A stretch of 64,000 bases of DNA, from NCBI GenBank assembly GCA_033344915.1, contig JAWPML010000001.1, forward strand, positions 1,732,369 through 1,796,368, written 5' to 3'. This stretch comes from Acidimicrobiales bacterium. GTDB lineage: Bacteria; Actinomycetota; Acidimicrobiia; Acidimicrobiales; Aldehydirespiratoraceae. The notes beneath the pieces were generated by a model. That model searched no databases. It saw nothing but the letters and a program-made list of their open reading frames with translations, and had not been told where the DNA came from. Position numbers and translations under genes: made by a program. Below are positions 35,885 through 39,318 of this stretch, one piece after another (the first letter of the stretch is position 1; each line of letters opens with the position of its first letter).

Positions 35885-36331
35885 CTAGAGCGAGCGGAGG
35901 GCGTCCAACGCCTCGTCGGCGTGCTTGATCATGTCCGTCTCGCTGCGGATCGACTTCACGAGCCGCCGGTCCGTGTCGATCACGAACGTTGCCCGCTTCG
36001 AGGGCAACGGACCGAGCCGCTTCACGCCGAACGCCTTGGCGACCTCCCGGTCGGCATCGGACAGGAGCGGAAAACCCAGGCTGTTCTTGTCGTCGAATTC
36101 CTTCTGCCGATCCACCGGATCGGCGCTGATTCCCACTCGCTGGGCGCCGAGTTCACCGAACTCCGACGCCAGGTCGCGGAAATGGCAGCTTTCCTTCGTT
36201 CAACCGGGGGTCATGGCCTTCGGGTAGAAGAACAACACGAGCGGCCCGTCGGCGACGAGGCTGCTGAGCCGAACCGACGCTCCGTGCTGGTCGGGGAGCT
36301 CGAAGTCGTCGATGATGTCGCCTTCGTCCAT
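35885..36331 (-). CDS. bcp: Bcp-type peroxiredoxin with in-frame UGA at the peroxidatic position (probable selenoprotein)
   Basis: Read through one TGA, the frame encodes a full-length 148-residue AhpC/TSA-type thiol peroxidase. It begins MDEGDIIDDFELPDQHG and continues LVLFFYPKAMTPG-(TGA)-TKESCHFRDLASEFG to the usual C-terminus (ATFVIDTDRRLVKSIRSE). The TGA is codon 44, exactly where the family has its peroxidatic Cys (TPGCT), and Cys49 matches the resolving cysteine five residues on. The frame is unbroken on both sides, which fits selenocysteine better than decay. The enzyme would reduce hydrogen peroxide and alkyl hydroperoxides with thioredoxin. The alternative is a single-base error or a fresh nonsense mutation. 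Confidence 0.75.
36163..36178 (-). promoter_or_regulatory. candidate bacterial SECIS hairpin after the UGA codon
   Basis: On the mRNA, CGAC and GUCG pair around the loop CUGGC, and one more C-G pair can form past a bulged G. The loop begins 28 bases after the UGA, inside the 16-37 base range known for bacterial SECIS elements, and contains the G residues that SelB needs. The stem is short, so this is tentative. Confidence 0.35.
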
Positions 36332-37931: not shown

Positions 37932-38004
37932 CGGCTCCCCGCTTGAGTTCACGTCGCCCGTTGTGGGACTGTGCGGGCCTTCGCAGACGAGGAGCATCGG
38001 CATC

Positions 38005-39318
38005 ATGACTGACCAATGGGGATTCGAGACCCGCCAGATCCACGCCGGGCAGGAGCCGGATCCGACGACGGGCGCCCGGGCGGTGCCGATCTATCAGACG
38101 ACCGCGTACACCTTCCGCGACTCGGAGCACGCCGCCAACCTCTTCGCCCTCGCGGAGATCGGCAACATCTACACCCGGATCATGAACCCGACCCAAGCCG
38201 TGGTCGAGGCCCGGCTCCAGAGCCTCGAGGGCGGCACCGACACCGCCGTCGGCATCCCCGGGGCACTGCTCACCGCATCGGGTCAGGCCGCGGAGACGCT
38301 CGCCATCCTGAACCTGGCCGAGAACGGCGACCACATCGTCGCTGCCGCGGCGCTCTACGGCGGCACCTACAACCTCCTCCACTACACGCTTCCGAAGATG
38401 GGCATCACCTGCACCTTCGTCGAGGATCCCGACGACGAAGCCGAGTGGAACGCGGCCGTGCAGGAGAACACCAAGGCGTTCTACTGCGAGTCGATCGGCA
38501 ACCCGCTGAACAACGTGGTCGACATCCGCAAGGTGGCCGACCTGGCCCATGCGCACTCCGTCCCGCTCATCGTCGACAACACCGTGGCGACGCCGTTCCT
38601 CATCCGCCCGATCGAGCACGGTGCGGACATCGTGGTGCACTCCGCCACCAAGTTCATCGGCGGCCACGGCACCGCGATCGCCGGGGCCATCGTGGACGGC
38701 GGCACGTTCGACTTCGGCGCCTCGGGCAAGCACCCGATGTTCACCGAACCCGACCCGAGCTACCACGGCCTCGCCTACTGGCCCGGCCTCGGCGCCGGGT
38801 CCTACATCATCAAGGCCCGCGTGCAGCTCCTGCGCGACATCGGGGCGGCGATCTCGCCGTTCAACGCGTTCCTGCTGCTCCAGGGGCTCGAGACGTTGAG
38901 CCTGCGGATGGAGCGCCACTTCGCCAACGCCCAGAAGGTGGCCGAGTATCTCGACGGTCACGATCAGGTGGAGTCGGTCGCCTACGCCGGGCTCCCCTCG
39001 TCGAAGTGGTACGACACCGCCCAGGCCCTCACCGGCGGCGCCGGCTATGGCTCGGTGCCCGCGTTCGAGATCAAGGGCGGTCTCGAAGCCGGCAAGGCAT
39101 TCGTCGAAGCGCTCGAGCTCCACAGCCATCTCGCCAACATCGGTGACGTGCGCTCACTGGTGATCCAGCCGGCAGCCACGACGCACTCGCAGCTGACACC
39201 CCAGGAGCAGGAGACCACGGGCGTGACCCCGGGCCTCGTGCGGCTCTCGGTGGGCCTGGAGAGCATCGACGACATCATCGCCGACCTCGACAGGGGCTTC
39301 GCCGCGGCCGCGGGCTGA
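38005..39318 (+). CDS. metY: O-acetylhomoserine sulfhydrylase (MetY-like)
   Basis: 437 residues, a PLP enzyme of the Cys/Met metabolism family. The length and the opening [31 protein letters not shown] point to MetY rather than the shorter MetB/MetC. The PLP lysine is Lys216 in [20 protein letters not shown] and [11 protein letters not shown] are also conserved. It condenses O-acetylhomoserine with sulfide to give homocysteine. GAGGAG lies before the ATG at 38005. Only 73 bases separate it from the previous gene, too little for a SAM riboswitch. Confidence 0.88.

Follow-up and report, generated by a model that had tools for sequence, protein, structure and literature searches.

The peroxiredoxin gene at positions 35885–36331 (minus strand) of the window, by which we mean the whole 64,000-nucleotide (nt) stretch of Acidimicrobiales DNA analysed here, very probably encodes a selenoprotein, judging from its sequence and that of its relatives. 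An in-frame UGA stands at the peroxidatic position of a PrxQ/Bcp enzyme, and the mRNA that follows contains a conserved element of three helices. We consider it likely that this is a selenocysteine (Sec) form of PrxQ/Bcp in which the last hairpin of the element, H4, is set off by a preceding arm and read by SelB; in this model Sec would be inserted at the UGA and SelB would bind H4. The protein is of a known kind, and the mRNA element is the new part. The features of the gene are as follows, with RNA positions counted from the U of the UGA.

35885–36331, minus strand: gene for the putative Sec-containing PrxQ/Bcp peroxiredoxin, 148 amino acids, start ATG, stop TAG.
36200–36202, minus strand: in-frame UGA at codon 44, the peroxidatic position, presumably read as Sec (RNA 1–3).
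36185–36187, minus strand: codon 49 (TGC), the resolving cysteine, which also lies within the 5' side of the arm.

The frame contains a single TGA, at codon 44 in the context AMTPG-U-TKESC. An earlier note on this DNA had described an uninterrupted frame around it encoding a complete Bcp, and the 148-residue read-through protein indeed matches the Pfam families AhpC-TSA (122.7 bits) and Redoxin (78.9 bits), both above their cut-offs and with coverage of the whole protein. The peroxidatic and resolving residues of the TPG(C/U)T...C motif lie five residues apart and are U44 and C49 in the window copy, as that note had also seen: the TGA replaces the Cys of TPGC-T and the resolving Cys is retained. 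The top match in the PDB is 5epf (E = 3.5e-51 over residues 2–147, motif TPGCTKEACHFRD), labelled Peroxiredoxin in the PDB table, which we take to be a mycobacterial PrxQ. The nearest NCBIfam models, the Bcp/PrxQ equivalogs NF006960 (100.2 bits against a cut-off of 140) and NF053650 (95.7 against 260), scored below cut-off, as did the PrxU model NF040737 (27.5 against 270). Since the protein falls under the NCBIfam cut-offs and belongs to a divergent branch, it is classed as PrxQ/Bcp by Pfam domain and motif only.

The TGA is widely conserved (loci of the survey carry L numbers and genomes G numbers, G000 being the window's own genome). A close orthologue (E ≤ 2.5e-43) was found in 33 of 61 genomes, the window's own and its relatives, with TGA in 26 and another codon in seven. 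The survey of the family yielded an orthologue in 36 of 51 genomes, and 35 of these 36 carry TGA at codon 44; the sole non-TGA orthologue, in G010, has TGC, and that genome is without a selA match. When 397 genomes of the order were searched with the protein, 163 gave a match at E ≤ 1e-32, and single-TGA orthologues number at least 53 among the matches listed, plus one in G027 (54 in all). In a scan of named genomes, the 80 best loci out of 577 confirmed relatives included seven with TGA (six after duplicate removal); the named relatives carry the labels Acidimicrobiia, other actinobacteria and mycobacteria. A scan of viral contigs gave one confirmed locus, 44% identical and with a Cys codon; over the best 80 named-genome loci and this viral locus together, the codon was TGC in 67 of 81 and TGT in 7 of 81. 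In the comparison with Cys-containing homologues that the earlier note had proposed, their peroxidatic Cys aligns with the TGA of the window gene. In a tree of the Sec and Cys forms, starred branches force at least two changes, though the columns are too few for a count of Sec gains and losses, and the placement of L139, a long branch, is unsure.

A TGA one base off TGC would look alike in one genome if it came from sequencing error, from a pseudogene or from a phase of decay, and a broken copy does occur: the Sec peroxiredoxin gene of G032 (L149) is interrupted shortly after the UGA, although selA is present there. Such an origin of the window's TGA is refuted by the comparison and has a negligible probability, given the same TGA in 35 of 36 family orthologues and the constraint on synonymous sites and base pairs in the TGA forms. 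The argument of the earlier note that decay or random error was unlikely to strike just this codon is borne out by the same count.

The window's genome consists of one contig of 4.48 Mb, and the search for Sec machinery suggested in the earlier note found all four genes, with scores above the cut-offs where these are given: selA (384.8 bits, cut-off 267.9), the adjoining selB (275.7 bits, cut-off 242.25; GTPase, beta-barrel and SelB-wing_3 domains), selC, the tRNA-Sec gene (64 bits, cut-off 47; called SeC with anticodon tca by ARAGORN), and selD (359.8 bits, G000:C1:1225971–1226897), which carries an in-frame TGA of its own. A selA match was present in 26/26 TGA genomes versus 1/7 Cys-codon genomes (Fisher p = 6e-6), one of the 26 matches (G005) being partial and below the cut-off. 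The sel genes, the conserved TGA and the Cys homologues support the probable selenoprotein that the earlier note proposed. A frame open beyond the UGA would also result if UGA had been reassigned to a different amino acid or an ordinary tRNA read through it, an explanation that we regard as very improbable: tRNA-Sec, selA and selB are present, homologues have Cys at the site, and TGA terminates conserved genes nearby. Close to the peroxiredoxin, the genes for NUDIX, YjbR and Cys/Met-PLP (pyridoxal phosphate) proteins all end in this codon, so it is an ordinary stop here.

The mRNA element comprises the following parts.

36190–36199, minus strand: 10-nt spacer from the UGA to the first helix (RNA 4–13).
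36176–36189, minus strand: 5' strand of the arm helix P1 (RNA 14–17 and 20–27; the lowest pairs may be in another register).
36149–36163, minus strand: hairpin H2 inside the arm, GAGUUC-NNN-GAACUC (RNA 40–54).
36125–36136, minus strand: 3' strand of the arm helix P1 (RNA 67–78).
36106–36124, minus strand: hairpin H4, GCCGAUCC-GGU-GGAUCGGC, the proposed SelB-binding hairpin (RNA 79–97), with the loop GGU at 36114–36116.

The arm spans about 65 nt (about 14–78) and is directly adjoined by H4, with no unpaired base between them. In the window H4 has an 8-bp stem, a 3-nt GGU loop and a predicted energy of −12.9 kcal/mol. The window's own minimum-energy fold contains the arm (14–78) followed by the 8-bp hairpin (79–97) with its GGU loop, and among 1000 synonymous shuffles seven folded with as low an energy. 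Compared with the hairpin with a CUGGC loop that the earlier note had pointed to, the conserved element covers more of the mRNA and is situated further from the UGA. The CUGGC hairpin is present in the window, but we do not regard it as a conserved signal because its full set of four pairs occurs in just 7/41 Sec and 3/80 Cys orthologues. Two other hairpins were rejected as protein-driven: GGAAA/UUUCC (RNA 9–25), predicted in the window, occurs in Cys genes at least as often as in Sec genes, and GCCA/UGGC (RNA 17–35) is likewise not Sec-specific. The first 61 nt folded alone gave no signal (z = −1.10, with 29 of 200 shuffles as good).

Structure counts refer to 78 distinct Sec sequences (alignment A3), made up of a first set of 41 (alignment A2) and 37 later ones, and to 93 Cys sequences (80 plus 13). 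The 80 Cys sequences are distinct stretches, drawn mostly from the best 80 of the 577 confirmed relatives; they are rich in mycobacteria, and the scan patterns partly required Cys. Exact repeats of the 102-nt stretch were set aside (L057 equals L041, and 20 of the 70 loci L195–L264 were already counted), and six Cys loci, L265–L270, with 2–5 of 8 H4 pairs, stand outside the 93. Related sequences are not independent in the p values for covariation and for loss of the resolving Cys given below.

H4 separates the two forms almost completely. At least seven of its eight pairs form in 41/41 and 36/37 Sec genes (77/78), against 0/80 and 1/13 Cys genes (1/93), and its loop fits G[G/U]N in 78/78 Sec genes. 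The Cys exception, L245 in genome G380, has UGC together with 7/8 H4 pairs and looks like a recent loss of Sec. Genus g36 contains both forms: ten Sec loci (L207, L208, L212, L218, L219, L220, L227, L235, L236 and L271) keep 7–8 of the eight pairs, and five Cys loci (L258 and L265–L268) have 2–3. Unconstrained folds of single sequences contained all three helices in 31/41 and 19/37 Sec genes and in 0/80 and 0/13 Cys genes; P1 and H4 together appeared in 31/41 and 22/37 Sec genes but never in Cys genes. The covariance model R1 matched 31 of the 61 genomes, once each and at bcp, with scores of 88–119 bits for 26 Sec genes and 27–50 bits for five Cys genes. Among the 397 genomes of the order 127 had a match to R1, including all 54 TGA orthologues at 61.7 bits or more; Cys genes scored at most 56.6 bits except that of G380 (L245) at 64.7 bits, a comparison made by eye. 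Cys-codon copies that lie near or among Sec lineages, namely L245 (H4 kept) and L258, L265–L268 and L139 (H4 mostly lost), are possible natural records of change from Sec to Cys, the direction being uncertain.

The coding sequence itself carries traces of the RNA structure. Across 31 Sec genes, synonymous choice is unusually constrained at codons 45–66 (Mann-Whitney p = 4e-4), whereas 80 Cys genes show no such constraint (p = 0.88); in Sec genes it is also strong at codons 67–75. A consensus fold is present in the Sec genes and there is none in the Cys genes. Its energy of −23.26 kcal/mol was abolished by within-gene synonymous shuffles (best −1.25 kcal/mol in 200) and weakened when codons were shuffled among sequences with the same residue (best −19.64 kcal/mol); in the latter control P1 (0.930 versus a best of 0.917) and H4 (0.972 versus 0.940) both lay beyond every shuffle. 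In A2, 95.9% of pair cells are standard and 32 are doubly changed, versus at most 10 in slid controls; in A3 the corresponding values are 92.2% and 86, where shuffles averaged 25.8 and slid controls reached no more than 33. Covariation is present in Sec genes (p = 1e-8, rows related) and not in Cys genes (p = 0.57) for pair 21–73, which joins codon 50 (CAU/CAC) to the first base of codon 68 (Ile/Val). The H4 pairs interchange C-G, A-U and G-C around the G[G/U]N loop, and in four loci (L202, L214, L221 and L222) the swap is accompanied by Ser for Asp at codon 74. The coding sequence thus appears bent to the RNA over 97 nt, to the point of a pair-keeping amino-acid change. A strong bias in Sec genes also affects codons 42 and 43 (Pro CCU and Gly GGU, at 41 and 43 bits; window 36203–36208, minus strand), which lie outside the drawn structure.

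Other Sec genes of the clade show different arrangements. Thirty selD loci were examined, of which 27 are Sec copies that could be parsed, two have Cys and one (L167) was left unparsed. In selD (L019, L168–L194) the in-frame TGA is followed by two abutting hairpins, A at 12–28 and B at 29–47. Hairpin A has 6–7 of seven pairs in 26/27 Sec copies and hairpin B in 27/27, and the loop of B reads NGUNN in all 27 and lies 32 nt from the UGA, within the published spacing. A second Sec PrxQ-like protein (WWYPKA.T.G-U-T; L140–L148) occurs in relatives, with no match in the window's genome, and 8/9 copies are without the resolving Cys. A thioredoxin-like protein with VW-U-PPC and an in-frame TGA was found in the window's genome (L154, G000:C1:1996500–2000500) and at L152, with the hairpin GCAGCU-GGUCG-AGCUGC; from its sequence it is likely another selenoprotein of this genome. 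For both families, with nine and two loci respectively, one hairpin is predicted, starting about 14 nt downstream of the UGA and present in most though not all folds of single sequences. AhpC/TSA-like frames with U-LPC in two relatives (L151 and L153) are possibly further selenoproteins; the source of L151, G054, is without a selA match.

Several observations weigh against the proposed reading. The bacterial model of the Sec insertion sequence (SECIS), as stated in the available text of PMC13188914, has a loop of 3–9 nt with G in the first two places, a stem of 4–16 bp, an energy of −7.5 kcal/mol or lower and a distance of 16–37 nt between UGA and loop, and the H4 loop lies 83 nt from the UGA. 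A displaced signal is not needed for this SelB, because the two other Sec families of the clade have single and closer predicted hairpins. R1 served to select the 37 later Sec sequences, so these are not an independent sample. P1 pairing amounts to 94.5% in the first 41 and 84.9% in the 37 later Sec genes, with 71.1% and 80.1% in the Cys sets; it discriminates less between the forms because the conserved protein alone dictates much of the arm, and two Cys copies near Sec lineages keep 11/12 P1 pairs. H2 is poor (1–4 of six pairs) in 9/37 later Sec genes and does no better than its same-residue controls (0.984 versus a mean of 0.980 and a best of 0.989). The number of pairs with double changes in A3, 11, was matched in 36 of 500 shuffles and in one slid control. 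RNAalifold on A2 pairs the arm base as 16–18 with 77–79, versus the counted 14–17 with 75–78; H4 follows immediately after the arm in either register. Support for the arm is good within the family and weaker beyond it, and H4 has the stronger case.

Another account, which we consider unlikely, keeps the selenoprotein and places the SelB signal within the first 60 nt, as a weak canonical hairpin or as the arm itself, with H4 as a helper that might slow the ribosome or stabilize the mRNA. It draws on the E. coli SECIS, which lies within about 40 nt according to the available text of PMC8659212, on the start of the arm 10 nt from the UGA and on the coupling of transcription and translation, which favours a close signal. 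Yet a hairpin conforming to the full published rule was found in 5/41 Sec and 9/80 Cys genes (by a script limited to uninterrupted stems), with no enrichment in Sec genes. With the spacing relaxed to 38–90 nt, the loop, stem and energy rule is satisfied in 37/41 Sec and 24/80 Cys genes, and at 78–88 nt in no Cys gene. The loop letters of H2 vary, in contrast to the G[G/U]N of H4 in every Sec gene, and the five Cys loci of g36 that have largely lost H4 nevertheless keep 8–11 of 12 P1 pairs and 4–5 of six H2 pairs.

According to the reading that we prefer, with H4 as the SelB target, the UGA would stand in the ribosomal A site and P1 would start 10 nt further on, at much the same distance as the SECIS hairpin of E. 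coli. P1, enclosing H2, would form a side arm of about 65 nt (14–78) folded out of the way. H4 (79–97, loop G[G/U]N) would abut the arm, probably stacked on it, and its loop would be offered to SelB as though about 18 nt from the UGA; taking the 65-nt arm from the 83 nt leaves 18 nt from the H4 loop to the UGA across the arm base. SelB with Sec-tRNA would then decode the UGA. We infer that the capped hairpin is the SelB target and the arm an insert because of the tandem layout in selD, the Sec genes with a single hairpin and the 18-nt spacing. It is reasonably probable that the element represents a SECIS class in which the SelB hairpin is carried about 80 nt downstream by an inserted foldable arm, with the spacing set across the arm base and not along the chain. 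Such a class would be used by one actinobacterial lineage in bcp, where the arm has about 65 nt, and on a smaller scale in selD, with a 17-nt hairpin, beside ordinary single-hairpin signals. The element makes it possible to test which distance SelB measures; if the reading is true, deletion of the arm should give a SECIS with canonical spacing.

In the enzyme, peroxide would be reduced at Sec44 to give a selenenic acid, which would form a selenenylsulfide with Cys49; thioredoxin or a similar thiol would then restore the enzyme, as in PrxQ chemistry. Because the window copy keeps Cys49, this cycle of selenenic acid, selenenylsulfide and thiol reduction is the most likely one. The resolving Cys is lost in 14/78 Sec forms (Arg in six, Lys in six, Ala in one and Asn in one), spread over four families of the order (f1, f17, f18 and f59), and in 0/93 Cys forms (p = 8e-6, related sequences not being independent).

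Sec loci without the resolving Cys: L033, L036, L040, L137, L225, L229, L230, L233, L239, L240, L243, L244, L247 and L248.

Its loss, seen only in Sec forms, suggests that Sec allows a two-residue peroxiredoxin to become a one-residue enzyme. Three genes from the Sec peroxiredoxin, at window positions 37963–39318 on the opposite strand, lies the gene for the Cys/Met metabolism PLP enzyme, which may be linked to the supply of sulphur or selenium.

We take COG1225 to be the Bcp/PrxQ group. Sec peroxiredoxins were already known, as the earlier note had said: the COG1225 type was established with 43 genes in the Sargasso Sea set in 2005 (PMC1088965, available text), 12 Sec peroxiredoxins were given in 2006 (PMC1794560, available text) and the Sec Prx family is also treated in the available text of PMC13188914. 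Searches of the open-access literature found no unusual or long-range bacterial SECIS of this sort by title or abstract opening, no Sec bacterioferritin comigratory protein by title among the matches listed, and nothing on a selenoprotein with Ilumatobacter, each of which is weak evidence of absence. A finder that uses the rule of 16–37 nt would miss the element because the H4 loop lies so far from the UGA; homology- or learning-based finders need not.

The window protein differs from Cys PrxQ/Bcp enzymes of the 5epf type in having a predicted Sec in place of Cys. With the COG1225 Sec peroxiredoxins it shares the AhpC/TSA fold, the TxxU motif and, as predicted, Sec at the position of the peroxidatic Cys, and it differs from them in its signal, a multi-helix element reaching out to 97 nt. 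H4 conforms to the loop, stem and energy rules of the canonical bacterial SECIS, its loop starting G[G/U]. The canonical element is one helix, whereas that of the window has three, with the arm placed before the hairpin. Some elements are described as lying outside the bacterial model and as perhaps forming separate classes (PMC13188914, available text). The hairpin of the E. coli fdhF SECIS starts 11 nt after the UGA (PMC8659212, available text), and the arm of the window element starts after 10.
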